NCBI GenBank assembly: GCA_016868035.1
Contig: VGID01000034.1
Location: 1 to 44,489 of the forward strand
DNA: 44,489 nucleotides
Direction of reading: 5' to 3'
DNA from: Betaproteobacteria bacterium
GTDB lineage: Bacteria; Pseudomonadota; Gammaproteobacteria; Burkholderiales; SG8-41
Positions within the stretch are counted from its first letter, which is position 1, and every line of letters starts with the position of its first letter. Made by a program: the position numbers and the translations under genes. Shown here piece after piece: positions 9,370 through 31,344 of this stretch. The notes beneath the pieces are model-generated. The model saw nothing but the letters and a program-made list of their open reading frames with translations, did no database searches and was not told where the DNA came from.

Positions 9370-10161
9370 TCAGCGCCACCCGGCGCGTTCCGAAAACTCC
9401 CGGATCACGCGCACCAGAATCACCGAAACGTTGTCGCGCCCGCCATTGTCATTGGCCTGCTGGACGAGCTGCTGCGCCGCGAGCGGAAGGTTGGCCTGCA
9501 GCGAGGACAGCGTCAGCTGAACGTCCTCGTCGCTCACCATGTCGCTCAGGCCGTCGGAGCACAACAGATAGATGTCTCCCTTCTGCACCGGATACGAGTG
9601 CACCTCCGCATCCACTTCCGGGTCGATGCCCACGGCCCGCGTCACCAGGTTCTTGTTCTGCGAATAGCGGGCCATTTCCTTGGTAATCATGCCGCTATCG
9701 ATCTGTTCCTGCAACAAAGAGTGGTCGCGCGTGACCTGCTCGAGCTTCTCGCCTCGCATCCGGTACAGCCTCGAGTCCCCGATGTGGCCTACCGTCATCT
9801 GGTTGTCGTACCACAGCGACACCACCAGCGTGGTGCCCATGCCCGAGTAGCGCGGCTGGGTCTGGGCCGCCTGGTAGATCGCCGCATTGGCCCTGGCCGA
9901 TTGCTGGGCGATGAGCGCCTCCGCTGTCTTCGAATTCAAATCGCTCGCGGCATCCGATGCGAGCGCCTTCTTCATCTCGGCGGTGACCATCGCCACGGCG
10001 ATCCCGCTCGCCACCTCGCCCGCGCTGTAACCGCCCATGCCGTCCGCCAGCACCGCAAGACCGATTTCCGGCGCGGTCGCGATGCTGTCCTCGTTGTGCG
10101 AGCGCACCATGCCCGGATGGGTTATGGAAGCGATTTCGAGCGCGGAGTTGAGATTGGCCAT
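9370..10161 (-). CDS. PP2C-family Ser/Thr protein phosphatase
   Basis: 263-aa metal-dependent phosphatase. The ordered PP2C motifs are visible: RSHNEDS near residue 20, LADGMGGYSAGE near 38, GMGTTLV, VGHIGDSRLYRM, LCSDGLSDMVSD and GGRDNVSVILV. The Asp residues that bind Mn/Mg are all retained, so it should be active. No membrane segment is seen. It starts 9 nt after the kinase stop, and the two should act as an opposing phosphorylation pair. Substrates are not apparent in the window. Confidence 0.92.
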   Translation of the reverse strand: MANLNSALEIASITHPGMVRSHNEDSIATAPEIGLAVLADGMGGYSAGEVASGIAVAMVTAEMKKALASDAASDLNSKTAEALIAQQSARANAAIYQAAQTQPRYSGMGTTLVVSLWYDNQMTVGHIGDSRLYRMRGEKLEQVTRDHSLLQEQIDSGMITKEMARYSQNKNLVTRAVGIDPEVDAEVHSYPVQKGDIYLLCSDGLSDMVSDEDVQLTLSSLQANLPLAAQQLVQQANDNGGRDNVSVILVRVIREFSERAGWR

Positions 10162-10170
10162 CTCCCGCCC

Positions 10171-11115
10171 TCATGCGCTCGCCGCGGGCGCGCCCACGAG
10201 GGTGGGTCGGCCCGCAGGCGACAGGCTCTGCAGGCACAGGCGAAGCGCCTTCGCCATCTGCTCGCCGTCCTGGTAGCGGCTCTCGGGATCCTTGGCGAGC
10301 GCGCGGTTGACGATCGCAGCGACGCACGCCGGAAGGGCCGCGTTGCGGGTGCGCACGTCGGGATGGGGCTCGTTGGCGATCCGGAACATGAGCTGCGCCA
10401 TCGAATCCCCCTGAAAGGGAAGGCTGCCGCAACCGAGCTGATAGAGCGTGGTGCCGAGCGAAAACAGATCGGAGCGGCCGTCGACCTTCTTGCCGGAGAG
10501 CTGCTCGGGCGACATGTAGGACGGAGTGCCCAGCACCATTCCGGTCCTGGTCTTGGATAAATCGGTGATGCGTGCGATGCCGAAGTCCGTGACCTTCACG
10601 GAGTCGGCGTCCGGCTCCCACATGATGTTGGCCGGCTTGACGTCGCGATGGATCACGTTGTTCCGGTGCGCGTAGGCGAGCGCGTCGGCCACGCGGGCGA
10701 TGATGGACAGCGCCGTCGGCAGCGGCAGGAGCTCGCCGGGGTTGATGTACGACGTCAGGTCCTTGCCCTTCAGCAGCTCCATCGCGATGTAGGCGAGATC
10801 GTGGTCCTCGCCGGCGTCGTAGATGGTCACGATGTTGGGGTGGGCGAGGCGCCCCGCGGTCTCGGCCTCCCGGAAGAAGCGTTCCTTGATCTCCTTCAAC
10901 TCGCCGGGCGCGAATTCCCGCGAAAACGCGAGCGTCTTGATCGCTACCACGCGCCCGATCGTCGGATCGCGCCCGAGATAGACGACTCCCATGGCCCCCT
11001 TGCCCAGCTCCTTCTCGACCTGGTAGCGACCGAGCGTCGGCTTCGCGCCCGCCCCCAGGAACAACTTGCCCCGGGGATGACCATGGCTCTCGTTGAAGAT
11101 CATGGTATCCAGCAT
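10171..11115 (-). CDS. Hanks-type Ser/Thr protein kinase, probably truncated
   Basis: 314-aa cytoplasmic kinase. Visible motifs are the glycine loop LGKGAMGVVYLGRD, VAIK (K60), the helix-C Glu (E84), HRDVKPAN (156-162), DFG (177-179) and GTPSYMSPEQL, so the catalytic core is intact. Homologues in betaproteobacteria often carry an N-terminal CHASE2 sensor and a TPR-like linker. Here the open frame begins within the linker at ATG 11115, with a poor ribosome site (CTCGGGGGCC). Upstream codons in the same frame read IAQCEPSFRELRTR after one TAG at 11176-11178, so the annotated start may be secondary. Pairs with the PP2C phosphatase. Kinase family certain; truncation inferred. Confidence 0.85.
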   Translation of the reverse strand: MLDTMIFNESHGHPRGKLFLGAGAKPTLGRYQVEKELGKGAMGVVYLGRDPTIGRVVAIKTLAFSREFAPGELKEIKERFFREAETAGRLAHPNIVTIYDAGEDHDLAYIAMELLKGKDLTSYINPGELLPLPTALSIIARVADALAYAHRNNVIHRDVKPANIMWEPDADSVKVTDFGIARITDLSKTRTGMVLGTPSYMSPEQLSGKKVDGRSDLFSLGTTLYQLGCGSLPFQGDSMAQLMFRIANEPHPDVRTRNAALPACVAAIVNRALAKDPESRYQDGEQMAKALRLCLQSLSPAGRPTLVGAPAASA

Positions 11116-11674: not shown

Positions 11675-12607
11675 CTAGTTGCCAAGTATGGTGCCCGCCG
11701 AAAGACCGGCCGAGCGCGCGAACTCGCCGCCGGAGAGTTTCTTGCCGTCAGCGCCGCGCGCTCGCAGCACTTCGATCGCACCGCCTTGCGCGGTCACCTT
11801 GAAGCTCGCATCCGTCACTTCCGAGACTTCGCCGATCTTGCCGGCGACGTCGGCGAAGCGGCGGAACGGGTGCTTGCGCGCGTCGAAGATCTGCAGCTTC
11901 TTGCCGTTCAACGTCGTCCACGCACCGGGCGCCGGGTTGCAGCCGCGCACGAGGTTGTAGATGAAATCGACGTGGTGAGCCCAGTGGATGCGCGCTTCGG
12001 CATCGCGGCACCATCCTTCGTAGCTCGCCTTCGCCTCGTCCTGCACGGTTTCCTTGTGCTTGCCCGCGGCCACGAGGTCGGCCGCTTCCAGCATCGCCGC
12101 CACGCCCAGCGGGGAGAGCTTGTTGAAGTAGACATCGCCCAGGGTTTCGTCCGGGCCGATATCGCACTCCTTCTGCAGCACGACCGGTCCCTCGTCGAGC
12201 CCTTCCGTGGGACGGAAGATGGTGAGCCCGGTCCGGGCATCGCCCCGGATGATCGGCCAGTTGATGGAGGACGGGCCGCGGTACTTGGGCAGCAGCGAGG
12301 GGTGGTACTGGATGGTGCCGAGCCGCGGCAGCTTGGTGAAGGTGTCCGGCGCGAACTGCAGCACGTAGGCCATGACGCCCAGGTCGGCCTTGAGCCCCTT
12401 CATCGCCTCGTGCGCTTCCGGGCTGCGCAGGGACGCGAACTGGAGCACCTTGAGCCCCCGCTCCTGCGCGACGGCTTTGAGCGGATCCGCCTTCGCGCCG
12501 GGTTTCTCGGGCGCGCAGAACACGCCCGCCACCTCGTCCTTGCGCGCGAGAAACGCCTCGAGCACCGCTTTACCGAAGTCCTGCTGTCCGATGATCGCTA
12601 TTTTCAT
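11675..12607 (-). CDS. 10-formyl-THF hydrolase-like / formyltransferase-fold enzyme
   Basis: 310-aa protein with the formyltransferase fold. MKIAIIGQQDFGKAVLEAFL, YHPSLLPKYRGPSSINWP and GLDEGPVVLQKECDIGP closely follow the N-terminal hydrolase domain of 10-formyltetrahydrofolate dehydrogenase. The catalytic pair would be H102 and D138. Here Y precedes that His, as in that hydrolase domain; Met-tRNA formyltransferase has the N-x-H pattern. The C-terminal 100 residues match the Fmt-type C-domain. There is no aldehyde dehydrogenase domain, so it would release formate from 10-formyl-THF or transfer a formyl group. It ends the oxc-frc operon, 83 nt after frc. The ATG at 12607 is chosen because homology starts there; an in-frame upstream extension looks non-conserved. 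Confidence 0.7.
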   Translation of the reverse strand: MKIAIIGQQDFGKAVLEAFLARKDEVAGVFCAPEKPGAKADPLKAVAQERGLKVLQFASLRSPEAHEAMKGLKADLGVMAYVLQFAPDTFTKLPRLGTIQYHPSLLPKYRGPSSINWPIIRGDARTGLTIFRPTEGLDEGPVVLQKECDIGPDETLGDVYFNKLSPLGVAAMLEAADLVAAGKHKETVQDEAKASYEGWCRDAEARIHWAHHVDFIYNLVRGCNPAPGAWTTLNGKKLQIFDARKHPFRRFADVAGKIGEVSEVTDASFKVTAQGGAIEVLRARGADGKKLSGGEFARSAGLSAGTILGN

Positions 12608-12690: not shown

Positions 12691-13962
12691 TTACGCCGCT
12701 TTTTTGGGCGGCGATGAAAACGCTCCTGCCGCCTTGAGCCGTGCGATCGTGTCGTCGTTGTAGCCGAGCACCTCGCGCAGGACCTCCTCCGTGTGCTCGC
12801 CGAGCGTCGGCGAGCGCTTGATCTCGGCTGGCGAGGCGGAGAGCTTGATCGGCATGCCGACGTTCCACCACTTGCCGCGCTGCGGGTGATCGAGCTCGAC
12901 CCACATGTCGCGGCCGCGTATGTGCTCGTCGTTGGCAAGATCCTCGGTGCTCATGATCGGCCCGCAAGGCACGTCGAGCGGGTTCAGGATTTCCATGAAC
13001 TCGCGTTTCGTGTACTTCTCGGCGAACTTGTTGATGAGCGTCCACATGAGCTGCTGGTTCTTGCGCCGATCGCCGATCTTGGCAAATCGCTCGTCCGTCG
13101 CCAGATCGGGGATGCCCACGTCCGGCCCGATGCGCCTCGCGAGCGCATCCCAGACCGCTTCCTGGACGACGATGTAGAGCCAGTCGTTCGCGCCATGCGG
13201 CTTGCAATGGATGGCGTTGCCGAGCTGCCCGCCGCCCGAGTCGTTGCCCGCGCGCGGCACTTCGCCCATCCCCTTGTATGTCGGCACCGAATACTCGGAC
13301 AGGTCCCCGCGCGTCAGTCGCTGGTGGTCGCGGAACTTGACGCGGCAGAGGTTCATCACGCCGTCCATCATCGCCACCTCGACGTACTGCCCCTGCCCGG
13401 TGCGATTCGCCTGATTGAGCGCCGCCAGCAGGCCGATCGCGAGGTGCAGCCCGGTGCCCGAGTCGCCGATCTGCGCCCCGGTGACAAACGGCGGGCCGTC
13501 AGGCACGCCGGTGGTGCTCATGGAGCCGCCCATCGCCTGCGCCACGTTCTCGTACGCCTTGAAATCAGCGTACGGGCCCGTGGAGCCGAAGCCCTTGATC
13601 GAGCCCATCACGATGCGCGGATTGATCTCGTGCACCTTCTCCCACGAGAAGCCGAGCCGGTCGAGCACGCCGGGGCCGAAGTTCTCCATGACGATCTGGC
13701 ACTTTTTGAGCAGGTCCACGAACACCTGCTTGCCCTCCGCCGTCTTCATGTTGACCGTGATCGAGCGCTTGTTGCAGTTCAACATGGTGAAGTAGAGGCT
13801 GTCGGCGTTCGGGACGTCGCGCAGCTGCCCGCGGGTCGCGTCGCCATGGGGTGGCTCGAACTTGATGACATCCGCCCCCAGCCACGCGAGCAGTTGCGAG
13901 CAGGTCGGCCCGGCCTGCACGTGGGTCATGTCGAGAATTCTCACGCCTTTCAATGCTTCCAT
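12691..13962 (-). CDS. frc: Formyl-CoA:oxalate CoA-transferase
   Basis: 423-aa class III CoA-transferase that exchanges CoA between formyl-CoA and oxalate. It tracks the Oxalobacter enzyme in length and motifs: GVRILDMTHVQAGPTCSQ, SLYFTMLNCNKRSI, VMENFGPGVLDRLGF, catalytic Asp in GAQIGDSGTG (D167), a glycine-rich loop SGGGQLG, and LNPLDVPCGPIMS. A CGAGGA ribosome site precedes the ATG. It lies 103 nt after oxalyl-CoA decarboxylase, which makes the formyl-CoA it uses. The pairing makes the oxalate assignment much firmer than for an isolated class III transferase. Cytoplasmic. Confidence 0.9.
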   Translation of the reverse strand: MEALKGVRILDMTHVQAGPTCSQLLAWLGADVIKFEPPHGDATRGQLRDVPNADSLYFTMLNCNKRSITVNMKTAEGKQVFVDLLKKCQIVMENFGPGVLDRLGFSWEKVHEINPRIVMGSIKGFGSTGPYADFKAYENVAQAMGGSMSTTGVPDGPPFVTGAQIGDSGTGLHLAIGLLAALNQANRTGQGQYVEVAMMDGVMNLCRVKFRDHQRLTRGDLSEYSVPTYKGMGEVPRAGNDSGGGQLGNAIHCKPHGANDWLYIVVQEAVWDALARRIGPDVGIPDLATDERFAKIGDRRKNQQLMWTLINKFAEKYTKREFMEILNPLDVPCGPIMSTEDLANDEHIRGRDMWVELDHPQRGKWWNVGMPIKLSASPAEIKRSPTLGEHTEEVLREVLGYNDDTIARLKAAGAFSSPPKKAA

Positions 13963-14065: not shown

Positions 14066-15802
14066 CTATTTCTTTTTCGCGCTCGTCGGATTCAGACTCG
14101 TGATGCGACCGCTTTCGGTGCCGGCGGTTTCATCGATGACGGCATTGACGAGCGTGGGCTTGCGCGAGCGGACGGCTTCTTCCACGGCCTTGCGCAATTC
14201 CGCCGGGGTCGTGGCATGTACGCCCACGCCACCGAACGCCTCGATCAGCTTGTCGTAGCGCGCGCCCTTGACGAACACGGTGGGCGCCACATCGGGGCCG
14301 CCGGTCGGATTGACGTCGGTGCCACAGTAGACGCCGTTATTGTTGAAAACGACCACGCAGACCGGCAGGTTGTAGCGGCAGATGGTCTCGACTTCCATGC
14401 CGGAGAAACCGAAGGCGCTGTCGCCCTCGATCGCGATCACCGGCTGGCCGCTGACCACGGCAGCTGCAACGGCAAAGCCCATGCCGATGCCCATCACGCC
14501 CCAAGTGCCGACGTCCAGGCGCTTGCGCGGTTTTTGCATGTCGACGATGCTGCGGGTGAAGTCGAGCGCGTTGGCGCCTTCGTTGACCAGAATGGCGTCC
14601 GGATTGGCCTTGATGATGTCGCGCATCACGTTCAGCGCGCTGTGAAAGTTCATCGGCGTCGGATTCCTGGCCAGGGTCTCCGCCATCTTGGCGATGTTCT
14701 TGCTCTTGCGCTCGGCGACGGCGCCCAGCCAGTCCGCAGACGGCTGGGGCCAGTTGGCGCCCATGGCGCTGATACCGCCAAGCATCGCGGACACGCAGGA
14801 GCCGATGTCGCCGACCACCGGAGCGTCGATGCGGACGTTGCTGTCCGCCTCCTGCGGCGAGATGTCGATCTGGATGAACTTCTGGCCGCCCCAGGCCTTG
14901 TGGTCCTTGCCGCCCCAGGTCTTGCCCTTGCCGTGCGAGAGCAGCCAGTTGAGCCGTGCGCCGATCAGCATCACCACGTCCGCCTCGGGCAGCACATAGG
15001 AGCGGGCGGCCGCTGCGGACTGCTCGTGCGTATCGGGCAGCAGGCCCTTGGCCATGGACATCGGCAGGTAGGGGATGCCGGTCTTCTCGACCAGGGCGCG
15101 GATGTCGGCGTCGGCCTGTGCGTAGGCGGCGCCCTTGCCCAGCACGATGAGCGGGCGCTTGGCAGTCTTTAACATCGCAAGGGCGCGCTGCACGGCGTCC
15201 TGGGCCGGGATCTGGCGCGGCGCCGGATCGACCACCTTGATCAGCGATCTCTTGCCGGCTTCCGCGTCCATGGTCTGAGCGAAGAGCTTCGCCGGCAGGT
15301 CGAGGTAGACGCCGCCCGGGCGCCCGGAGACGGCGGCGCGGATGGAGCGCGCGATGCCCACACCGATGTCTTCTGCATGCAGCACGCGGAAGGCAGCCTT
15401 GGCGAGCGGCCTGGCGATGGCCAACTGGTCCATCTCCTCGTAGTCCCCCTGCTGCAGGTCGACGATTTCGCGCTCGCTGGAGCCGCTCACGAGGATCATC
15501 GGGAAGCAATTGGTGGTGGCGTTGGCCAGTGCGGTCAGGCCGTTCAGGAAGCCGGGGGCGGACACCGTCAGGCAGATGCCGGGCTTTTGCGTCATGAAGC
15601 CCGCGATGGCGGCGGCGTTGCCCGCGTTCTGCTCATGGCGGAACGAAATCACGCGCATGCCCGCGGCCTGTGCCCTGCGGGTAAGGTCGGTGATCGGGAT
15701 ACCGGGAAGGCCGAAGATCGTGTCGATGCCGTTCAACTTGAGGGCATCGATGACCAGGTCAAAGCCGTCGGTCACTGCTTGCGATTGTGCATCGGTTGTC
15801 AT
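14066..15802 (-). CDS. oxc: Oxalyl-CoA decarboxylase
   Basis: 578-aa ThDP-dependent enzyme converting oxalyl-CoA to formyl-CoA and CO2. It follows the Oxalobacter enzyme almost throughout: [27 protein letters not shown] with the catalytic Glu (E57), [72 protein letters not shown], and the ThDP/Mg motif [19 protein letters not shown] ending in FNNNG. A GAGGGA ribosome site precedes the ATG. It is first in an operon with frc and the formyl-THF hydrolase-like gene, behind a Crp/Fnr-type promoter at 15844-15886. Cytoplasmic; central step of oxalate catabolism. Confidence 0.95.
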
Positions 15803-15843: not shown

Positions 15844-15886
15844 ATCATAGTGGGCAGTGTGCACATGTGCTATTGACCGCGATCAA
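15844..15886 (-). promoter_or_regulatory. Class II Crp/Fnr-type promoter of the oxc operon
   Basis: On the minus strand TTGATCGCGGTCAA (15886-15873) is one base from the FNR consensus TTGAT-N4-ATCAA. After exactly 23 bases comes TATGAT (15849-15844), a good -10 hexamer. This puts the box centre about 42 bases upstream of the predicted start near 15837, the classic position for activation by a Crp/Fnr protein. The spacer holds a 10-bp palindrome GCACATGTGC (15861-15870) where a -35 would lie. Predicted leader is about 35 nt to the oxc ATG. Confidence 0.65.
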
Positions 15887-16001: not shown

Positions 16002-16610
16002 ATGCCCCTGCTCGCGCTCCATCCCGAAGCCAAGATCATACGCGTGCAGCTGCGGCAGAACGTGATCCTCAAGCATCTCACTTCCGCACAGTGGGCGGAG
16101 CTCCAGCCGCTGCTCGAAATCGTGGACTATCCGAAGGGAGAGGCGCTCGAACACCAGGGCGATCGGGCCATGGAACAGTATTTCGTCCTCGACGGCATCC
16201 TCAAGCGCGTGGTGTCGAACGCCCAGGGCAAGGAAATGATCCTGCGCTTCGCCGCCGAAAGCGACATCGACACCAGCTACGCGGCGTGGCGCCTGAAGAC
16301 GCCGATTCCGTACTCGATCCGCGCTGTCACCCGGGTGCGCGCCGCCAAGCTCTCGATGCAGCAATGGGTACAGTTCATTGCGCGCCACGCCGCCGTCAAG
16401 AGCGCGTTCGAGTTCGAGATCATGAAGCTCATGAGCGAAGTCATGGCCCACACCATCACCTTGCACCTGCTGGACGCCCCCGGCCGCGTGCGGCGCTTCA
16501 TGCGCAAGCACTCGGCGCTCGCCGGGCGCCTGCCCAAGAAAGAGCTCGCCTCCTACCTCAACCTCTCGCCCGAGACGCTCTCGCGCCTCAAGCGCCGCGG
16601 CAAGATCTAG
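16002..16610 (+). CDS. Crp/Fnr-family transcription regulator
   Basis: 202-aa regulator. The N-terminal cupin-like effector domain (about residues 15-125) includes VDYPKGEALEHQGDRAMEQYFVLDGILKR. A dimer helix follows, then a short winged-helix end, KELASYLNLSPETLSRLKRRGKI. The recognition helix has E191-x-x-S194-R195, the FNR-type pattern that reads TTGA half-sites. The protein contains no cysteine, so it cannot hold an FNR iron-sulfur cluster; the signal is unknown. It is transcribed away from oxc, sharing the intergenic region with the TTGA-N6-TCAA box, and ends 10 nt from tctA. A TATACT hexamer (15960-15965) may be its -10. Likely regulator of the oxalate genes (inference). Confidence 0.85.
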   Translation: MPLLALHPEAKIIRVQLRQNVILKHLTSAQWAELQPLLEIVDYPKGEALEHQGDRAMEQYFVLDGILKRVVSNAQGKEMILRFAAESDIDTSYAAWRLKTPIPYSIRAVTRVRAAKLSMQQWVQFIARHAAVKSAFEFEIMKLMSEVMAHTITLHLLDAPGRVRRFMRKHSALAGRLPKKELASYLNLSPETLSRLKRRGKI

Positions 16611-16620
16611 GCATCCAGGC

Positions 16621-18135
16621 TTAGGCCGCCGTTGCGCCGACGCGGCTGGCGCGCAGCGCCACGAGCCCGCGGGCAACGATGGGCCAGAACAGCGCAAACA
16701 GCGCGAGCCCCGTGATGCTGCCCACCAGCCAGTTGGAGAAGAAGATCCTGAGGTCGCCCTGCGCGAGCAGCATGGACTGGCGGAACGCGCTCTCGGCGGC
16801 GTCGCCCAGCACCAGAGCGAGCACGAGCGGCGCCAGCGGATAGTCCAATTTCTTGAACACGTAGCCGAACACGCCGAACATCAGCATGTACCAGATGTCG
16901 TACACGGCGTTGTTCACGGTGTAGGCGCCGATCGCGCACACGACGATGATGACCGGCGCGATGATGGAGAACGGCACGCGCAGGATCGCCGCGAAGACCG
17001 GCACGCAGGTCAAGCACAGGATCAGCGTCGCGATGTTGCCCAGGTACATGCTCGCGATCAGGCCCCACACGAACTCCGGCTTCTCGACGAACAGCAGCGG
17101 CCCCGGCTGCAGGCCCCAGACCAGCAGTCCGCCCAGCAGCACGGCCGCTGTGGGCGAGCCCGGGATGCCGAGCGCGAGCATCGGCAGCAGGGCCGAGGTG
17201 CCGGCGGAGTTGTTCGCCACCTCCGGCGCGAGCACGCCCTCGAGCTTGCCGGTGCCGAAGTCCGCGCCGTCCTTCGACATCCGCTTCGCCACACCGTAGG
17301 CCATGAATGAGGCCGGGGTCGCACCGCCCGGCGTGACCCCGAGCCAGCAGCCGATCACCATGCTGCGGATCGCCGTTCCCCAGAACCGGATCATCCGGCG
17401 CCAGGTGTCCCACACGACGGTCAGATTGAGGCGCGCGCTGCGGCCGCTGAACTCGAGCCCCTCCTCCATGCACAGCAGGATCTCGCCGATGCCGAAGAGC
17501 CCGATTACCGCGATGAGGAAGCTGAACCCGCGCAGCAGCTCGGAGAAGCCGAAGTTCAGCCGCAGCGTGCCGGTCACCATGTCCATGCCGACCGCCGCGA
17601 GACCGAAGCCCAGCATCATCGAGACCAGGATCTTGAACGGCTTTTCCTTGCCCATGCCGATGAAGCTGCAGAAAGTCAGGAAGTAGACCGAGAAGAACTC
17701 CGGCGGGCCGAACTTGAGGGCAAAGCGCGCCACGAGCGGGGCGAGAAAGGTGATCATGATCACAGCGCACAGCGCCCCGAAAAACGAGGAGGTGAACGAG
17801 GTCGTCAGCGCTTCCGCGGCGTGGCCGTTCTGCGCCATCGGATAGCCGTCGAACGTGGTGGCGACGGACCACGGCTCGCCCGGTATGTTGAACAGAATCG
17901 AGGTGATCGCGCCGCCGAACAGCGCGCCCCAGTAGATGCACGAGAGCATCACGATCGCCGAGGTCGGCGGCATCGCGAACGTGAGCGGCAGCAGGATCGC
18001 CACCCCGTTCGCCCCGCCCAGCCCCGGCAGCACCCCGACGATGATGCCGAGGAACACGCCCACGAACATCAGCACGATGTTGTAGGGCGTCAGCACGACC
18101 GAGAACCCGTAGAACAGCGAATTCAGTTCTTCCAC
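16621..18135 (-). CDS. tctA: Tripartite tricarboxylate transporter large membrane subunit TctA
   Basis: 504-aa polytopic inner-membrane protein, the usual TctA length, with about 11-12 hydrophobic segments. The family motif LGVLPGLGGANGVAILLPLTF occurs near residue 35, with GVTPGGATPASFMAYGVAKR and LALGIPGSPTAAVLLGGLLVWGLQPGPLLF further on. It forms the solute:cation symport channel with TctB, fed by the periplasmic receptor TctC. The order tctC-tctB-tctA on one strand is complete. The substrate class is carboxylates; closeness to the oxalate genes makes oxalate or a related di-acid possible but unproven. Confidence 0.92.
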   Translation of the reverse strand: MEELNSLFYGFSVVLTPYNIVLMFVGVFLGIIVGVLPGLGGANGVAILLPLTFAMPPTSAIVMLSCIYWGALFGGAITSILFNIPGEPWSVATTFDGYPMAQNGHAAEALTTSFTSSFFGALCAVIMITFLAPLVARFALKFGPPEFFSVYFLTFCSFIGMGKEKPFKILVSMMLGFGLAAVGMDMVTGTLRLNFGFSELLRGFSFLIAVIGLFGIGEILLCMEEGLEFSGRSARLNLTVVWDTWRRMIRFWGTAIRSMVIGCWLGVTPGGATPASFMAYGVAKRMSKDGADFGTGKLEGVLAPEVANNSAGTSALLPMLALGIPGSPTAAVLLGGLLVWGLQPGPLLFVEKPEFVWGLIASMYLGNIATLILCLTCVPVFAAILRVPFSIIAPVIIVVCAIGAYTVNNAVYDIWYMLMFGVFGYVFKKLDYPLAPLVLALVLGDAAESAFRQSMLLAQGDLRIFFSNWLVGSITGLALFALFWPIVARGLVALRASRVGATAA

Positions 18136-18189: not shown

Positions 18190-18705
18190 TCAGTAGCCAA
18201 GATACCTGAGGAAGTGATACGCGCCCTTGGGCAGCGGCACCTTGAACCAGACTTCGAACATCAGGAAAAAGAACACGCTCGTTCCCAGCCCCACTACGAT
18301 GCCCTTGTACCAGGCGTAGCGGCCGACCCAGATCATGAAGCCGGCGAGGTACACCGTGGTGGCGACGTAGATGCCGATCAGCGGGATCGCTCCGACGAAG
18401 AGCGCTGCCGGGACCAGCATCTTCATGACCTGCCGCAGCCGCGCCCACTCGACGAACACGACGAGCCGCTGGTGCCTCTCGACGATCGCCGTGGCGAGAT
18501 TCGCGAGGCTGGCGAAGCAGATGATCAGCCCGATGTAGAACGGGAAATAGCCCGGCTGCGGGCCGTCAAAGGCCCACCCCGCGCCCAGGCGCCGGCTGTC
18601 GAATACCATGATCGCCCCCAGCGCAAACGTGAACAGCGCGATAAAGATCTCGATCGCGCGCGTGGAAGGCCCGGACGTGCTGGACCGATTGGGGTCTTCA
18701 GCCAT
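18190..18705 (-). CDS. tctB: Tripartite tricarboxylate transporter small membrane subunit TctB
   Basis: 171-aa protein with four predicted membrane helices: AIEIFIALFTFALGAIMVF, YFPFYIGLIICFASLANLA, LVPAALFVGAIPLIGIYVATTVYLAGFMIW, and FFFLMFEVWF near the C-terminus. The layout and GPQPGYFPFYIGL match TctB. The ATG at 18705 (MAEDPNRSS) is preferred; a GTG 36 nt upstream is possible, and neither has a strong ribosome site. It sits 48 nt after tctC and 54 nt before tctA. Confidence 0.85.
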   Translation of the reverse strand: MAEDPNRSSTSGPSTRAIEIFIALFTFALGAIMVFDSRRLGAGWAFDGPQPGYFPFYIGLIICFASLANLATAIVERHQRLVVFVEWARLRQVMKMLVPAALFVGAIPLIGIYVATTVYLAGFMIWVGRYAWYKGIVVGLGTSVFFFLMFEVWFKVPLPKGAYHFLRYLGY

Positions 18706-18753: not shown

Positions 18754-19758
18754 TCAGGGCTTCGCCAGGAAGCCCGCTTCCTTCATCAAATTGCGGTGCA
18801 GGTCCTCGGCGCCCTGTACCCACTTGGCATACGCGGGCCCGGTCATGAAGGACTGGTTGAAGGCGCCCCGCTCCATGAATTCCTTCCATTCGGACGTCTC
18901 GCGCACCTTGCGGAAGAGCCCGACGTAGAAATCCACGGCTTCCTTGGGCACGCCGGCGGGCATGAAGATGCCGCGCAGCATGAGGTAGTCGGCCGGCACG
19001 CCCGCCTCCTTGCAGGTCGGGATGTCGTGCCACGACATCGTTTCCGTGACCTTGCCCTTGTACGGCATGCGCGAATCGTCGAACACGCACAGCGGGCGCA
19101 GTTGCCCGGCGCGCCATTGCGCGACCGCCTCGATCGGGTTGTTCACGGTGGAGTCCACGTGCTTGCCCACGAGCTGGGTCGCCACGTCGCCGCCGCCCTT
19201 GAACGGCACGTAGATGAACTTGGTGCCGGTCGCCTTCTCGATGCCCACGGTCAGGATCTGGTCTTCCTGCTTGGAACCGGTGCCGGCCATCTTGAACTTG
19301 TTGGGCCCGGCCTTTTTCACCGCGTCGAGGTAATCCTTGGCGCTCTTGTAGGGCGTGTCCGCATGCACCCACAGCACGAACTGGTCGAGCGCGAGCATCG
19401 CCACCGGCGTGAGATCCTTCCAGTTGAAGGGCACGCCGGTCGCAAGCGGCGTGGTGAAGAGGTTGGACAGCGTGATGATGATCTTGTGGGAGTCGGCCTT
19501 CGAACCCTTGACGTCGAGGAAGCCCTCGGCTCCCGCGCCGCCCGACTTGTTGACCACCACGAAGGGCTGCTTCATCAGATTGTGCTTGGCGACGATGCCC
19601 TGGATCAGGCGCGCCATCTGGTCGGCGCCCCCGCCGCTGCCTGCCGGCACCACGAACTCGACCGGCCGCGTCGGCTCCCACGCTGCCGCCGTGGGCGCGC
19701 CAACGAGCGCGGCCACAAACAGCATCGCGGTGACACTCAAAATACGATGGATGTGCAT
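18754..19758 (-). CDS. tctC: Bug/TctC-type periplasmic carboxylate receptor
   Basis: 334-aa periplasmic binding protein. The start MHIHRILSV has a GAGGAG site upstream and opens a signal peptide ending near GAPTAAAWEP. The mature protein has the Bug pattern: PVEFVVPAGSGGGADQMARLI, a ligand-loop region FVVVNKSGGAGAEGF, then YVPFKGGGDVATQLVGKHVDSTVNNP. Together with TctA and TctB it forms a complete secondary transporter. An isolated TTGAC-N4-GTC box 127 nt upstream hints at Crp/Fnr control. Ligand unknown. Confidence 0.9.
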   Translation of the reverse strand: MHIHRILSVTAMLFVAALVGAPTAAAWEPTRPVEFVVPAGSGGGADQMARLIQGIVAKHNLMKQPFVVVNKSGGAGAEGFLDVKGSKADSHKIIITLSNLFTTPLATGVPFNWKDLTPVAMLALDQFVLWVHADTPYKSAKDYLDAVKKAGPNKFKMAGTGSKQEDQILTVGIEKATGTKFIYVPFKGGGDVATQLVGKHVDSTVNNPIEAVAQWRAGQLRPLCVFDDSRMPYKGKVTETMSWHDIPTCKEAGVPADYLMLRGIFMPAGVPKEAVDFYVGLFRKVRETSEWKEFMERGAFNQSFMTGPAYAKWVQGAEDLHRNLMKEAGFLAKP

Positions 19759-20218
19759 GACATTCTCCTCATTTGTTTGAACCAGCAAAAAAGGACCCGC
19801 TCCCTGGTTCTACTTCTTATGTGGCACTTCCGTGCTTCTTTTTTGCGCTCGCGTGATTCATCCGTATTCTGACATGCAAATAAACCGACTGGGGTCAAGT
19901 TTTTTTTCATGGTGCGACGCACAAACACTCCCGTGCCACAAACGCGGTCCGGAAAGAACCCGCGCGCTACTATCGCGACTCCCTGATATATGGGACATCG
20001 AATTCAGGCGAAAGTGCGAGAGGAACCTCTCGAAAAATCGTCGAAGGCGAACGAACCCGCCGATGAGCGCGGACAAAATCAGAAAAACCACAGCGGAAAG
20101 AACGCGTTGACACTCTCGCGGTGCTACCGCAGATGACCTGCGGTTACTGGATCCTGGTTCCTGAGATTACCGCCAGTCGCAGCCGCAACGCATCACGCGC
20201 CTATATATGAAACAGGTT
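19759..20218. promoter_or_regulatory. Intergenic region upstream of tctC with dyad elements
   Basis: About 460 bp without a gene. 19885-19898, read on the minus strand, is TTGACCCCAGTCGG, an imperfect TTGAC-N4-GTCAA box. 20017-20032 is a 16-base dyad, CGAGAGG and CCTCTCG around AA, with too tight a centre for a hairpin, so more like an operator. 20126-20144 forms a perfect 7-bp hairpin (ACCGCAG, five-base loop, CTGCGGT) downstream of the antiporter gene. Confidence 0.4.
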
Positions 20219-22635: not shown

Positions 22636-24312
22636 CTAAAACAGGCCGACCACCTTGCCCTCATCGGTGAGATCGATCTTCTCGGCCGAGGGCACCTTGG
22701 GCAGGCCCGGCATGGTGAGGATGTCGCCGCAGACCATGACGATGAATTCCGCCCCCGCGGCAAGCCGCACTTCGCGCACGTTGAGGACGTGCCCGGACGG
22801 GGCGCCGCGCAGCCGCGGATCGGTCGAGAACGAGTACTGGGTCTTCGCGACGCACACCGGGTAGCTCCCGTAGCCCTCTTCCTGCAGCTTCTTCACCTGG
22901 GCGCGCACCTTCGCGTCCGCCGTGACGTCGGACGCGCCGTAGATCCTCGTCGCGATCGCCTTGACCTTGTCCCATAGCGGCACGCTGTCCTCGTAGACGA
23001 ACTTGAAGCTGTTGGCGCCCTTCTCGACGATCCCGATCACGGCCTTCGCGACCTCCTCCGCTCCCTTGCCGCCCTCGGCCCAGTGGCGCGCAGTGATCAC
23101 GGGCACACCGCCCGGCGCCATCTTCTTCTTGAGCAGATCGATCTCGGCCTGCGTGTCGAAAGTGAAGTGGTTGATCGCAACCACGCACGGCAGGCCGTAG
23201 TGATCGCACACGTTCGCAACATGGCGCTCGAGGTTGGCGACCCCCTTCTCCAGCGCGGGCAGGTTCTCCTTGTTGAGCTCCTTCACGTCCACGCCGCCGT
23301 GGTACTTGAGCGCGCGGATGGTGGCGACGATCACGACCGCATCGGGCCTGAGCCCCGCCTTGCGGCACTTGATGTCCACGAACTTCTCCGCCCCCAGGTC
23401 GGCGCCGAAGCCCGCTTCGGTGACGACGTAGTCCACGAGCTTGAGCGCGGTGCGGGTCGCGATCACCGAGTTGCAGCCGTGCGCGATATTGGCGAACGGG
23501 CCGCCGTGGATGAATGCCGGGTTGTTCTCCAGCGTCTGCACCAGGTTGGGCTGGATCGCGTCCTTGAGGAGCACCGTCATCGCGCCGTGGACCTTCAGGT
23601 CCTTCGCCCGCACCGGCTTCTGCTCGCGCGTGTAACCGACGACGATGTTGCCCAGCCGCGTCTTGAGGTCCTTCAACGACGTGGCAAGGCAGAAAATCGC
23701 CATCACCTCGGAAGCGACCACGATGTCGAATCCGTCCTGGCGCGGATAGCCGTTGCCGGGCCCGCCGAGCGAGGCGGTGATCTCGCGCAGCGCGCGGTCG
23801 TTCATGTCCATCACGCGCTTCCAGGTGATGCGCCGCACGTCGATCCCGAGCTCGTTGCCGTGATGGATGTGGTTGTCGAGCGCCGCGGCGAGGAGATTGT
23901 TCGCGAGCGCGATGGCGTTGAAGTCGCCGGTGAAGTGCAGGTTGATATCCTCCATCGGCACCACCTGCGCGTAGCCGCCACCCGCCGCGCCTCCCTTCAT
24001 GCCGAACACCGGGCCGAGGCTCGGCTCGCGCAGGCAGATCATCGCCTTCTTGCCGATGCGGTTCAACGCATCGCCGAGCCCGACCGTGGTCGTCGTCTTG
24101 CCTTCGCCCGCCGGCGTCGGGCTGATCGCGGTGACGAGTATGAGCTTGCCGTCCTTCTTTCCCTTGAGGGTGTCCACGTATTCGAGCGAGACCTTCGCCT
24201 TGTGGTGCCCGTACGGCACGAGGTGGTCCTCCGGGATGCCGAGCTTCTCGGCGATCCTGGTGACGCGCAGCATCTTCGCCTGCTGCGCGATTTCGATGTC
24301 GGACAACGGCAT
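22636..24312 (-). CDS. fhs: Formate-tetrahydrofolate ligase
   Basis: 558-aa enzyme, exactly the family length, joining formate to tetrahydrofolate with ATP. Visible motifs: the P-loop-like [51 protein letters not shown] and [13 protein letters not shown]. The ATG at 24312 ([11 protein letters not shown]) is selected over an upstream in-frame codon because CAGGAG lies just before it. It provides the entry of formate into one-carbon metabolism, in competition with the formate dehydrogenase encoded immediately upstream in the same transcription direction. A 152-bp repeat element separates it from fdhA. Cytoplasmic. Confidence 0.96.
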
Positions 24313-24498: not shown

Positions 24499-27309
24499 CT
24501 ACACTCTTTGAAGTTCGGCGAGCGCCTTGCCCCCGCCGTAGCTCGAGCGCGGCGTCAACTCGCCGCCGCGCATCACCTTCACCGCGCAGTACTTGAATTC
24601 CGGTATCTTGCCGAACGGATCGAGCGCCGGATTGGTGAGCAGGTTCGCCGCCGCCTCGTAGAAGCAGAACGGGATGAACACCGCACCGCGCGGCGTTCCA
24701 TCGTCCGCGCGCGCGTAGAGCGAGATGATGCCGCGGCGCGACTCCACGGTGACGACATCGCCCGGCCTCGCGCCGATTCGATCCAGGTCGAGCGGGTGCA
24801 GCGAGGCCACCGGCTCGGGCTCGATCGCATCGAGCACCGCCGCGCGGCGCGTGATCGCGCCGGTGTGCCAGTGCTCGAGCTGGCGCCCCGTGATGAGCAC
24901 GAACGGAAACTCCTCGTCCGGGCGCTCGGCGGCCGGAACGATGTCGGCCGGCACGAACTTGCCGCGCCCCGTCGGCGTCGGGAATTTTTCGGTGAACACC
25001 ACCGGCTCTCCCGGATCGCCCTCCTTCTCGCACGGATACGTGACGCAGCTCTCCTCTTCGAGCCGCTTCCACGTGATGCCGGCGATCGAGGGCATCGCCT
25101 TTCGCATCTCGTCGAACACGTCGGCCGCGCCCCCGTAGCTCCAGTCGAGCCCCATGCGGCGCGCGATCTCCTGGATGATCCACAGATCGGGTTTCGCTTC
25201 GCCCGGCGCGGCGAGCGCCTGCCGTCCCAGCTGCACCATGCGGTCGGTGTTGGTCACCGTGCCGGTCTTCTCCGGCCACGCGGTCGCCGGCAGGATCACG
25301 TCGGCGTAGTAGCAGGTCTCCGTCAGGAAGATCTCCTGCACCACCAGGCAGTCGAGCTTGGCGAGCCCCTCGCGCGCGTGGTGCGCGTCGGGATCGGACA
25401 TCGCGGGGTTCTCGCCCATGATGTACATGCCGCGGATCCTGCCCTCGTGCACCGCGTCCATGATCTCGACCACCGTGAGCCCCGGCTTGGGATCGAGCGC
25501 GGTGCCCCAGAGCTTTTCGAAGCGCGCGCGCGCTTCGCCGTTGTCCACGCGCTGATAATCCGGGAACACCATCGGGATCAGCCCCGAGTCGGAAGCGCCC
25601 TGCACGTTGTTCTGCCCGCGCAGCGGATGCAGGCCCGTACCCGGGCGGCCGACCTGGCCCGTCATCAGGCACAGCGCGATCAGGCAGCGCGCGTTGTCGG
25701 TGCCGTGCACGTGCTGCGAGATCCCCATGCCCCACAGGATCATCGAAGCCTTCGACTTCGCGTAGAGCCGTGCCACTTCCCTGATCGTTTCCGCGGGGAT
25801 GCCGCAGATCGGCGCCATCGCCTCGGGGCTGTAGCCTTCGACGTTTTTCCGAAGCGCTTCGTAGCCGGTGGTGCGGCTCTTGACGAAGTCCTCGTTCACC
25901 ATCCCCTCGTGCACGATCGTATGCATCATGGCGTTCAGGAACGCCACATCGGTGTCGGGCTTGAACTGCAGGAAATAGGCCGCGTGGCGCGAGAGCTCGG
26001 AGCGCCGCGGATCGGCGTAGATGAGCTTGGCGCCCTTCTTCGCGGCGTTCTTGATCCAGGTTGCGGCCACCGGGTGGTTGGACACGGGGTTCGCGCCGAT
26101 GAGGAAGATCACTTCCGCGCGCGCGACGTCGTTTACCTGGTTCGACACCGCGCCCGATCCGATGCCTTCGAGCAGCGCCACGACCGAAGAGGCGTGGCAC
26201 AGCCGCGTGCAGTGATCCACGTTGTTCGAGCCGAAGCCCGTGCGCACCAGCTTCTGGAACAGATACGCTTCCTCGTTGGTGCCTTTCGCCGAGCCGAAAC
26301 CGGCGAGCGCGTGCTTGCCGCGCCCGTCGCGGATCTTCTTCAAGCCCCCGGCAGCGAGGTCGAGCGCTTCTTCCCAGCTCGCCTCGCGGAAGTGTTCCAG
26401 CGGGGTTGCCGGGTCCATCGTGAAGTCCGCATGCTTGGGCACGCCCTTTTTGCGGATCAGCGGCTTCGTGAGGCGTTGCTTGTGATGCACGTAATCGAAT
26501 CCGTAGCGTCCCTTCACGCAAAGACGCCCGTGGTTCGAGGGCCCGTCCGCGCCGTCGACGTAGAGGATCCTGTTGTCCTTCACGGCGTAATCGATCTGGC
26601 AGCCGACCCCGCAGTACGGGCACACCGAGCGCACTTTCTTGTCGGGCTTCACCATGCCCACGCCGCGCGCCGGCATGAGCGCCCCGGTCGGACACGCCTG
26701 CACGCACTCCCCGCACGCGACGCAGGTCGATTCGCCCATCGGATCGTCGAGGTCGAACACGATCTTGGAGTGCTCGCCCCGGAAAGCGTACCCGATCACG
26801 TCGTTCACCTGCTCTTCGCGGCAGGCGCGCACGCAACGCGTGCACTGGATGCAGGAATCGAGGTCGACCGCGATTCCGAAGTGCGTGAGATCGGGCTTGG
26901 GCTGGTGGCGCGGCGCGAAGCGCGGCTTGCCGACCTTGAGCTTTTTCGCCCAGAAGTCGAGCTCCGAGTCGGGTGTATGGCGCTCCTTCGGCATGTCGGA
27001 GAGCAGGAGCTCCAGCACCATCTTCTGCGAGGCAAGAGAGCGCTCGTTGTCGGTCGTCACCTCCATGCCCGGCGCCGGCTTCCTGCAGCACGCGGGCGCC
27101 AGCACCCGCTCGCCCTTGACCTCGACCATGCACGCACGGCAATTGCCGTCCGGACGCATCCCCTGCTTGTAGCAGAGGTGCGGGATCTCCACGCCGTAGC
27201 GCTTGGCGGTCTGGAGGATGGTCTCGGTGGAGCTGCCGACGACATTGCTGCCGTTCAGCTTGAATTCCACCGGCATCGCGGCCAGTTCTTCCTTCGTCAT
27301 CGCCGTCAT
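24499..27309 (-). CDS. fdhA: Formate dehydrogenase, molybdenum/tungsten catalytic subunit
   Basis: 936-aa cytoplasmic catalytic subunit. N-terminal NuoG-like [2Fe-2S] site: C46, C57, C60, C74/75. Two ferredoxin-type [4Fe-4S] sites: C153/156/159/163 and C196/199/202/206. One proximal [4Fe-4S]: C230/233/237/264. The metal-binding Cys lies in VDHCTRLCHASS (C371), so this is a Cys, not selenocysteine, enzyme. Molybdopterin-binding segments LIGANPVSNHP, GENPAMSDPD and the C-terminal domain near FVLITGRQLEHWHTG are present. The His-Cys3 cluster motif found after the [2Fe-2S] site in NuoG and FdsA is missing (residues 100-125). Partner FdhB lies upstream; no fdhD or delta-subunit gene is in the window. 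Confidence 0.93.
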   Translation of the reverse strand: MTAMTKEELAAMPVEFKLNGSNVVGSSTETILQTAKRYGVEIPHLCYKQGMRPDGNCRACMVEVKGERVLAPACCRKPAPGMEVTTDNERSLASQKMVLELLLSDMPKERHTPDSELDFWAKKLKVGKPRFAPRHQPKPDLTHFGIAVDLDSCIQCTRCVRACREEQVNDVIGYAFRGEHSKIVFDLDDPMGESTCVACGECVQACPTGALMPARGVGMVKPDKKVRSVCPYCGVGCQIDYAVKDNRILYVDGADGPSNHGRLCVKGRYGFDYVHHKQRLTKPLIRKKGVPKHADFTMDPATPLEHFREASWEEALDLAAGGLKKIRDGRGKHALAGFGSAKGTNEEAYLFQKLVRTGFGSNNVDHCTRLCHASSVVALLEGIGSGAVSNQVNDVARAEVIFLIGANPVSNHPVAATWIKNAAKKGAKLIYADPRRSELSRHAAYFLQFKPDTDVAFLNAMMHTIVHEGMVNEDFVKSRTTGYEALRKNVEGYSPEAMAPICGIPAETIREVARLYAKSKASMILWGMGISQHVHGTDNARCLIALCLMTGQVGRPGTGLHPLRGQNNVQGASDSGLIPMVFPDYQRVDNGEARARFEKLWGTALDPKPGLTVVEIMDAVHEGRIRGMYIMGENPAMSDPDAHHAREGLAKLDCLVVQEIFLTETCYYADVILPATAWPEKTGTVTNTDRMVQLGRQALAAPGEAKPDLWIIQEIARRMGLDWSYGGAADVFDEMRKAMPSIAGITWKRLEEESCVTYPCEKEGDPGEPVVFTEKFPTPTGRGKFVPADIVPAAERPDEEFPFVLITGRQLEHWHTGAITRRAAVLDAIEPEPVASLHPLDLDRIGARPGDVVTVESRRGIISLYARADDGTPRGAVFIPFCFYEAAANLLTNPALDPFGKIPEFKYCAVKVMRGGELTPRSSYGGGKALAELQRV

Positions 27310-27483: not shown

Positions 27484-29115
27484 TCACACAGCGTATCGCG
27501 CCGCCTGTCCCAGGCCGCAGATCGAGGCATCCGCCATCGCCACCGAGAGCTCCTCGAGCAGCTTCTGGTCCCAGTGCGGCGCTCCCATCAGCGTCACGGC
27601 CTTGGCGGTGCCCACCCGGCACGGCGTGCACTGCCCACAGGATTCGTCCGCAAAGAACCGCATCAAGTTCCGCGCCGCCGCGGCCGCCCTGTCCCGGTCG
27701 GAGAGCACGATGATCGCCGCCGAGCCGATGAAGCAGCCGTGCTCGTTCAACGTGTCGAAGTCGAGCGGGATATCGCCCATGGAAGCGGGCAGGATGCCCC
27801 CCGAAGCCCCACCCGGGAGATACGCGTAGAACGCGTGCCCCGGCAGCATGCCCCCGCAGTATTCCTCGATCAGCTCCTTCACCGTGATGCCGGCCGGCGC
27901 GAGATGCACGCCCGGTTTCTTCACGCGCCCCGACACCGAGAACGAGCGCGGTCCCTTGCGCCCGTGGCGGCCCTGCGAAGCGAACCAGGCTCCGCCTTTT
28001 TCCAGGATCTCGCGCACCCAGTATAGCGTTTCCATGTTGTGCTCGAGCGTCGGATAGCCGAAGAGCCCGACTTGCGCGACGTACGGGGGCCGCAGCCGCG
28101 GCATGCCGCGCTTGCCCTCGATGGATTCGATCATCGCCGACTCCTCGCCGCAGATGTACGCGCCCGCTCCGCGCCGCAGGATGATCGGCGGCAGCGGACA
28201 CGGCGGATCCGCCTGCAGCGCCGCGAGCTCGCGCTCGAGGATCGCGCGGCACCCCGCGTACTCGTCGCGCAGATAGATATAGACCTCGGCGATCTGGACG
28301 GTCCATGCGGCGATGATCGCGCCCTCGAGGAAGCGGTGCGGGTCGCGCTCGAGGTAGTAGCGGTCCTTGAACGTGCCCGGCTCGCCCTCGTCGATGTTGA
28401 CCGCGAGCAGCCGCGGCGCCGGCTCACCGCGGACGATGCGCCACTTGCGTCCCGCCGGGAAGCCCGCGCCGCCCAGGCCGCGCAGCGCGGAGTCCTCCAT
28501 GGCCTTGATGATCGTTTCCGCGTCGCGTTTTCCCGCGAGGCATTCCGCGAGCAGGCGGTATCCGCCTTTCCTGCGGTATTCCGCATAGCCGGTGTATTTG
28601 CCCACCGGGCACCTGGTCTTGCCCGCCGCGACGAGCGGCCGCACCTTGGCGAGCGTCGCCTGCGCGACCGGATTCTGTCCCACGATGGCGACCGGCGCCT
28701 GCTCGCAGCGGCCCACGCACGGGGCGGGCTTCACGCGCACGTCCTTGCCGAGCGCGCGCTGGAGTTCTGCCATGAGCTCCTGCGCACCCGCAAGCTCGCA
28801 CGAGAGCGAATCGCATACGCGCACCGTCAACGCCGGCGGCCGCGCATCGCCCTCCTTCACCACGTCGAAATGGTGATAGAAGGTCGCAACCTCGTAGACT
28901 TCGGTCTGCGCGAGGCCCATCTCGGCCGCGAGCGCCACCGCGTGCGCTGCGGAAATATGCCCGTAGCGGTCCTGGATCCTGTGCAGATGCTCGATGAGCA
29001 GGTCACGCCGGCGCGGCGCGTTGCCGAGCAGCGCGCGCACCTCGGCGCGCGCCCGCGGTTCGACGACGCGGCCCTTGGGCTTGCCGCGCGCTGCGCGCTC
29101 ACGCTTGCTGGCCAC
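27484..29115 (-). CDS. fdhB: Formate dehydrogenase NuoE-NuoF fusion subunit, C-terminally frameshifted
   Basis: 543-aa diaphorase subunit. Residues 20-150 are NuoE-like with a [2Fe-2S] site (C101, C106, C133, C137). The remainder is NuoF-like: RGLGGAGFPAGRKW (NADH), NIDEGEPGTFKDR (FMN), YICGEESAMIESIEGKRG, and a [4Fe-4S] site SCGQCTPCR plus the last Cys in SICGLG. This passes electrons from FdhA to NAD+. The fusion resembles FDH1-type enzymes of methylotrophs. After SICGLGQAA the frame ends in RYAV. The expected tail (IRCVMKYFPKEVG) is readable one frame over at 27455-27495, indicating a small deletion or sequencing error. All cluster ligands are retained. GTG start with GGAGGAG upstream. Confidence 0.9.
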   Translation of the reverse strand: MASKRERAARGKPKGRVVEPRARAEVRALLGNAPRRRDLLIEHLHRIQDRYGHISAAHAVALAAEMGLAQTEVYEVATFYHHFDVVKEGDARPPALTVRVCDSLSCELAGAQELMAELQRALGKDVRVKPAPCVGRCEQAPVAIVGQNPVAQATLAKVRPLVAAGKTRCPVGKYTGYAEYRRKGGYRLLAECLAGKRDAETIIKAMEDSALRGLGGAGFPAGRKWRIVRGEPAPRLLAVNIDEGEPGTFKDRYYLERDPHRFLEGAIIAAWTVQIAEVYIYLRDEYAGCRAILERELAALQADPPCPLPPIILRRGAGAYICGEESAMIESIEGKRGMPRLRPPYVAQVGLFGYPTLEHNMETLYWVREILEKGGAWFASQGRHGRKGPRSFSVSGRVKKPGVHLAPAGITVKELIEEYCGGMLPGHAFYAYLPGGASGGILPASMGDIPLDFDTLNEHGCFIGSAAIIVLSDRDRAAAAARNLMRFFADESCGQCTPCRVGTAKAVTLMGAPHWDQKLLEELSVAMADASICGLGQAARYAV

Positions 29116-29196: not shown

Positions 29197-31244
<2,048 letters not shown>

Positions 31245-31301: not shown

Positions 31302-31344
31302 AATCTATTACAGGGGATTGTGGGCCGGCCTTGACCGAAGTCAA
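31302..31344 (-). promoter_or_regulatory. Crp/Fnr-type promoter upstream of sucC
   Basis: On the minus strand TTGACTTCGGTCAA (31344-31331) is a perfect TTGAC-N4-GTCAA dyad. Exactly 23 bases later comes TAGATT (31307-31302), a four-of-six match to a -10 hexamer. The spacing is identical to that of the oxc promoter. The transcript would start near 31295, about 50 nt before sucC. Confidence 0.55.

Follow-up and report, generated by a model that had tools for sequence, protein, structure and literature searches.

The promoters of oxc, which encodes oxalyl-CoA decarboxylase, and of the sucCD-fdhBA-fhs gene set carry boxes of the same type, TTGAY-N4-RTCAA, in a 44,489-nt stretch of betaproteobacterial DNA (hereafter the window; contig C34 of the 3.9 Mb, 127-contig genome G000). 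Comparison across relatives makes it likely that both boxes act as operators in a single pathway-specific regulon, for the uptake of oxalate, the decarboxylation of oxalyl-CoA and the use of formate, and that they are read by a CRP/FNR protein encoded next to oxc. The box-bearing oxalate and formate genes most likely turn on together, as far as sequence can indicate. The sequence-only reading had placed the two promoters in one regulon, which is supported by the retention of the box before both operons in most genomes of the family, with diverged flanks, as well as by boxes at tctC, at those fhs genes that are not immediately behind fdhA and at part of the frc genes. That reading overlooked the probable regulator, whose gene is divergent from oxc.

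The sucC box, TTGACTTCGGTCAA, lies on the minus strand at 31331-31344 and is separated by a 23-nt spacer (31330-31308) from the -10-like hexamer TAGATT (31302-31307, minus strand). The letters and coordinates first read for this promoter (31344-31302, minus strand) proved correct, and 86 nt lie between the box and the sucC ATG (31244). The oxc box, TTGATCGCGGTCAA (15873-15886, minus strand), is located between oxc and the regulator gene, 23 nt from TATGAT (15844-15849, minus strand) and 70 nt from the oxc ATG. The letters also bear out the identical 23-nt gap at the two promoters. As evidence for a common regulon, which is how it had been used, this equality is weak and was rejected: a gap of 21-23 nt is usual for this box class, so that the common spacing shows only that both resemble promoters of this class. 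TAGATT matches TATAAT at 4/6 positions. The best-scoring hexamer at gaps 18-27 of the sucC promoter is TGTAAT (gap 18, 5/6), which our definition of a -10-like hexamer (A second, T last) leaves out; TAGATT and TGTAAT are alternative candidates for the -10 element of sucC. The window contains four TTGA-N6-TCAA sites against 0.11 expected from shuffles, of which those at 10886 and 23663 are intragenic and do not have the inner Y...R pair. A degenerate box, TTGACCCCAGTCGG (19885-19898, minus strand), is found 126 nt upstream of tctC, with two mismatches to TTGACYGNGGTCAA and no clear -10; it is the only box at tctC in this genome.

The gene names oxc, frc, sucC, fdhA and fhs, as originally assigned, all pass curated cut-offs. 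On the minus strand, oxc (14066-15802) was above the cut-offs of the NCBIfam models PRK09259 and TIGR03254, and the formyl-CoA transferase gene frc (12691-13962) above that of TIGR03253. The adjoining gene at 11675-12607 (minus strand) encodes an Fmt-like formyltransferase that scores below the methionyl-tRNA formyltransferase (Fmt) cut-off and may act on some formyl compound of the pathway. A tripartite tricarboxylate-type transporter is encoded by tctC (18754-19758), tctB (18190-18705) and tctA (16621-18135), all on the minus strand and recognized by the Pfam profiles TctC, TctB and TctA, respectively. In the second gene set, also on the minus strand, succinate-CoA ligase is encoded by sucC (30078-31244, above the equivalog cut-off) and sucD (29197-30081, named from its CoA_binding and Ligase_CoA domains). 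They are accompanied by fdhB (27484-29115), whose naming was upheld as a NuoE-NuoF-like fusion matching the NuoE and NuoF models below their cut-offs, by fdhA for the formate dehydrogenase alpha subunit (24499-27309, above cut-off) and by fhs for formate-tetrahydrofolate ligase (22636-24312, above the PRK13505 cut-off of NCBIfam). The CRP/FNR-superfamily regulator, 202 aa long with a PETLSR motif and no Cys, is encoded divergently from oxc on the plus strand (16002-16610).

A genome-wide scan for TTGA-N6-TCAA followed by a -10 had been proposed as a check. The box was indeed enriched in G000, with 56 sites versus 11 for the reversed pattern, and the usual gap to the -10 was 21-23 nt; the scan did not single out the two promoters. 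The stricter TTGAY-N4-RTCAA form occurred 34 times (4 for its reversed pattern), that is, at 32 sites besides those of oxc and sucC. Among sites with gene calls, which came from a simple codon model and leave out the boxes on contigs C94 and C105, 27/30 of the YR sites were intergenic versus 1/20 of the non-YR sites. Over 46 site orientations, -10-like hexamers were found at gaps of 21, 22 and 23 nt in 7, 8 and 4 cases, and the remaining gaps between 10 and 40 account for 3 in all. The form TTGAC-N4-GTCAA by itself was modestly enriched (6 vs 3), so that the box class alone does not mark out an oxalate regulon.

Further boxes of this class, which in general has the same spacing, lie at ccoN (C66:3355), in the region that separates an fnr gene from hemN (C66:10832), and beside a gene that resembles nosR (C6:73261; 670 bits against a cut-off of 1000). 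These sites, together with the two FNR-type and two DNR-like proteins of G000, speak for the boxes being FNR or DNR sites that place the oxalate and formate genes in the general low-oxygen or denitrification regulon of this genome, as do published Fnr/Dnr sites of the form TTAAC-N4-GTCAA (accessible part of PMC5398030). We regard this as unlikely in view of the co-occurrence data given below and of the prevalence of C/G at positions 5/10 of the family boxes, set against 14 sites of the T/A form TTGAT-N4-ATCAA in G000. One FNR-type protein of G000 scored above the NCBIfam Fnr cut-off and has cysteines spaced C-x2-C-x5-C; the other was slightly below it and would have these cysteines at the same intervals provided that translation begins further upstream. 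On contig C66 (L045, L046 and L049) the two are encoded less than 10 kb apart, one adjoining hemN and the other about 2 kb from ccoN. Contig C6 holds 16 TTGAY-N4-RTCAA boxes, one of them intragenic, within about 40 kb (53-94 kb; L016-L018). They lie around a nosR-like gene and genes of electron-transfer type; the region also encodes a DNR-like regulator (87.4 kb), and this cluster is perhaps a denitrification-type island.

Conservation was examined in the 300 nt upstream of orthologues from a family sample of 74 genomes. For oxc, 60 loci were taken; four (L123, L187, L188 and L189) had no oxc start, which left 56 readable loci, 53 of them with 300 nt, and some starts were extrapolated and do not fall on a start codon. 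The box was present in 51/53, being absent in G050 and G066, and none was found in the shorter upstream regions of G056, G069 and G070. For sucC, with 61 loci and 60 of full length, the box was present in 52/60; it was absent in G043, G047, G048, G049, G050, G052, G056 and G066, and also from the shorter G022 region. Shuffled sequences gave means of 0.27 (56 oxc loci) and 0.21 (61 sucC loci) with a maximum of 2, and the reversed pattern gave 0 and 1, respectively. Since the reversed control can underestimate the background, we place the weight on the dinucleotide shuffles, flank identity and neighbouring genes. The compact pattern TTGAYYGNGGTCAA was found in 70/74 genomes (203 strand hits vs 10 reversed). 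Because the genomes are related, all these counts, like the Fisher values below, overstate independence.

Mean pairwise identity inside the box was 0.90, and 0.78 (oxc) and 0.76 (sucC) over its six inner bases. Over the 20 nt preceding the box it fell to 0.36 and 0.33, and from the fourth spacer base onward to 0.37 and 0.40; the three nucleotides directly after the box gave 0.68 and 0.96. The majority box was TTGACCGGGGTCAA at oxc and TTGACTGCGGTCAA at sucC. Positions 5 and 10 were mostly C and G, respectively (43/51 and 45/51 for the oxc boxes, 50/52 and 52/52 for the sucC boxes); the family boxes share the outer TTGA...TCAA of the FNR box but not the full TTGAT-N4-ATCAA. That FNR form occurred 23 times, against 1 for the reversed-pattern control, in G066, a genome with no FNR-like hit at E 1e-15, which illustrates how this control can understate the background. 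A -10-like hexamer at gap 22 or 23 was counted 51 times over the 51 oxc sites (10 at other gaps from 10 to 33) and 41 times over the 52 sucC sites (2 at other gaps). Chance similarity of two promoters could be entertained on the grounds that the window offers two cases only and that 22/50 of the examined sites, among the 56 TTGA-N6-TCAA sites of the genome, are intragenic. Family genomes and more distant loci alike retain the box while its flanks have diverged; this has already refuted chance similarity, to which we give practically no weight.

The distribution of the box over genes was tallied in named contigs (L211-L290, the best 80 of 137), which overlap with the family genomes, so that the two sets are not independent. 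Genes with at least 40% identity over at least 85% of the length were counted, with 300 nt taken upstream from the start of the aligned part; sucC, sucD and fdhB have no row in this tally. Within these best 80 of 137 contigs, the box was found at all oxc starts (67/67), at 74/78 regulator starts, often in a region in common with oxc, at 41/55 tctC starts, 21/32 fhs starts and 27/66 frc starts. For fhs, the box was present in 9/9 cases where the gene is not directly behind fdhA and in 12/23 where it is, and the locus maps place the frc boxes where frc is divergent from the regulator. No box was detected at 308 starts of pp2c, pkn, fmt, tctA, tctB, fdhA, caca and terC in the same 80 contigs, and usp1 (1/25) and usp2 (1/14) together had 2/39.

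The more diverged loci of this set, L268-L290 (regulator identity 66-75%, among the best 80 of 137), had the box at 20/20 loci with an oxc orthologue (83-91%), with a -10-like hexamer at about 21-24 nt as judged by eye. No oxc hit was obtained in L271 and L280, again within the best 80 of 137. In L268 (8144-9912), the regulator and box adjoin a gene with just 25% resemblance to oxc; frc and the remaining locus are kept, and the decarboxylase may have been replaced. The locus is also carried by metagenome contigs titled Bordetella parapertussis (L228, L229, L235, L237, L238, L247, L248, L250, L265, L278 and L284) and by one titled Chitinophaga pinensis (L269); these titles look wrong for a locus of uncultured betaproteobacteria.

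The 202-aa regulator matches the cyclic-nucleotide-type domain PF00027 (1.8e-11). No NCBIfam model gave it a name above a cut-off, and genome searches with PF00325 and PF13545 did not include it among their matches, presumably owing to its short HTH. A fold model from 29 more varied homologues (pLDDT 88; an earlier one from 18 close homologues reached pLDDT 64) predicts a long helix (130-154) and C-terminal helices at 179-185 and 190-198, consistent with the CRP/FNR superfamily layout of effector domain, long dimer helix and C-terminal HTH. Foldseek searches with the model matched GlxR, CRP and FNR structures. The protein ends in LPKKELASYLNLSPETLSRLKRRGKI at residue 202, after the last helix (190-198), and has no beta-hairpin wing. 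The PETLSR motif was invariant among the 18 and 29 aligned homologues, including E191, S194 and R195, and contains the FNR-type recognition motif E-x2-S-R. This motif is common to both FNR-type and both DNR-like proteins of G000. The window protein contains no cysteine, and hence lacks the four cluster-ligating cysteines of FNR. The residues aligned to the cAMP-contact positions of CRP, which we take to be E72, R82 and S83, differ in the regulator.

In a sequence search of the PDB, the best match was 3dn7 (E 1e-11, 194 aa), followed by CRP and DNR (3dkw, E 4e-7). We take 3dn7 to be a wingless Crp/Fnr protein of Bacteroidota, where this kind is presumably common. It is similar in length to the regulator, and the alignment reaches the end of 3dn7 at the recognition helix. 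The regulator was searched for beyond the family in genome contigs (best 80 of 137) and in plasmids, and the 17 plasmid records that it matched include 14 from Bacteroidota genera, in agreement with that host label. Unlike the Bacteroidota wingless proteins, it forms a betaproteobacterial clade that is linked to oxc and has a predicted operator. With CRP it has the fold in common, supported by sequence and fold matches, and differs in the replaced cAMP contacts (at the positions assumed above) and in its recognition motif, PETLSR. With DNR it likewise shares the CRP/FNR fold, as well as the E-x2-S-R residues also present in the DNR-like proteins of G000, and it differs in that its gene is linked to oxc rather than to nitrogen-oxide genes and in that its C-terminal wing is missing.

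The accessible part of PMC4505428 describes the FNR box TTGATNNNNATCAA, the class II FF-41.5 promoter with the box centred at -41.5, and Glu-209, Ser-212 and Arg-213 of Escherichia coli FNR as the main contacts to the FNR box, and that of PMC5398030 gives Fnr/Dnr sites at -41.5 and -39.5. With -10-like hexamers at gap 22-23, the oxc and sucC promoters show the spacing expected of class II promoters, in which a box centred near -41.5 would leave about 22 nt to the -10. To the extent that these sources describe them, FNR/ANR class II promoters are alike in box architecture, box-to--10 spacing and E-x2-S-R residues. In contrast to FNR, the proposed reader has no cysteine, hence no iron-sulfur cluster of the FNR kind. 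The regulon also differs from those of FNR/ANR in its mostly C...G inner box bases, in its oxalate and formate targets and in the independence of the box from FNR across genomes.

This independence bears on which protein reads the boxes. The regulator gene was detected in 59/74 genomes, twice as a partial gene. In 51/54 loci read, it has an oxc start within 345 nt, the two genes being divergent in some loci and codirectional in others, with one downstream of the other. No oxc was found in three genomes with the regulator (G031, G041 and G058), and in G069 and G070 the two genes are on different contigs. The oxc box was present in 51/51 cases with the regulator and 0/2 without (Fisher 7e-4, optimistic given relatedness), where the latter are two genomes, G050 and G066. 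Their loci (L299 and L300, respectively) keep oxc and miss both the regulator and the oxc box, and in G050 the neighbouring tct genes match in pieces only. Linkage was less strict for the sucC box, which was present in 46/49 cases with the regulator and 6/11 without (p 0.0035, again optimistic). The regulator is present and the sucC box absent in G047, G048 and G049.

FNR presence, counted as a hit with at least 40% identity, showed no association with either box over the 74 genomes: the oxc box was found in 37/38 cases with FNR and 14/15 without, and the sucC box in 40/46 and 12/14. FNR as the sole reader was therefore rejected, and we propose the regulator as the reader because the oxc box follows its gene and not FNR. 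Both boxes occur in ten genomes where no FNR hit reached 40% identity. One of them, G026, was taken as the case for the HTH check by eye and the DNR-like count among FNR-less genomes; it has two further PF00027 matches, neither with a CRP/FNR-type recognition helix by eye, so that no other CRP/FNR-type DNA binder was found there among PF00027 matches. Both the ten genomes and G026 argue against FNR or DNR as the reader.

Another possibility is that the boxes are real and shared and a different CRP/FNR-superfamily protein reads them, the oxc-adjacent gene being a passenger or modulator. Most of the 12 genomes searched have many PF00027 matches, and the sucC box persists in six genomes where no regulator gene was detected (G007, given as 98% complete, G008, G009, G037, G038 and G054). 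Five of these six have no close oxc and G054 has an oxc fragment, which points to a possible assembly gap; in G043, also without the regulator, the fhs box is kept. Given the joint loss of regulator and oxc box in G050 and G066, and the result for G026, we consider a different reader improbable, even more so than FNR or DNR. Several points nevertheless weigh against the oxc-adjacent regulator: its missing wing, the degenerate tctC box of G000, the four FNR-type and DNR-like proteins of G000 with the same recognition motif, and the genomes above in which the regulator gene does not go together with the sucC or fhs box or with oxc.

Returning to the oxc-adjacent regulator as the reader, a homodimer would bind TTGAY-N4-RTCAA by means of a recognition helix with FNR-like E-x2-S-R residues. 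Judged from the position of the -10, the box would be centred some 41-43 nt ahead of the start site, and from there the protein would contact RNA polymerase as a class II activator rather than act as a repressor, and a weak -10 about 22-23 nt beyond the box would complete the promoter. Control would be exerted by a signal from the pathway. Frc and Oxc turn over oxalate through oxalyl-CoA and formyl-CoA. TctCBA may import oxalate, SucCD may supply succinyl-CoA as the first CoA donor, and the formate would feed the NAD-type dehydrogenase for oxidation or enter assimilation through Fhs. Cross-binding by FNR or DNR, where these are present, would add an oxygen or NO input. More tentatively, and with somewhat less than even confidence, we suggest that the regulator belongs to a hitherto undescribed clade of wingless CRP/FNR-fold activators whose former cyclic-nucleotide pocket senses an intermediate of oxalate catabolism (oxalate, oxalyl-CoA or formyl-CoA). 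Such activators would jointly switch on transport and decarboxylation, the supply of succinyl-CoA, and the oxidation or assimilation of formate.

When bacteria break down oxalate, the carbon of plant and fungal oxalate re-enters the carbon cycle. The gene set ties succinate-CoA ligase and formate use to this process, suggesting a source of the CoA donor and of reducing power, and a named protein with an operator and a target list makes the question directly testable. A literature search covering few subscription journals, and including the accessible part of PMC10192776, did not turn up any CRP/FNR-type regulator for oxc/frc genes of bacteria; as far as that search reaches, a CRP/FNR-superfamily regulon with this target pathway is unreported.

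Downstream of oxc, frc and the formyltransferase gene, the window encodes a PP2C-type phosphatase and a PknB-like Ser/Thr kinase (9370-11115). Their linkage to the locus is kept in dozens of relatives, with at least 50 loci for the phosphatase and at least 45 for the kinase among the best 80 of 137 contigs. A second, distant sucC-like gene is present in G000 (C18:34031-35149), with 39% identity and a score slightly below the succinate-CoA ligase cut-off. Since 12/74 genomes show such a gene at E 1e-60, many genomes may have the window-type sucC as their sole copy, in which case the TCA-cycle enzyme itself may sit in the regulon.
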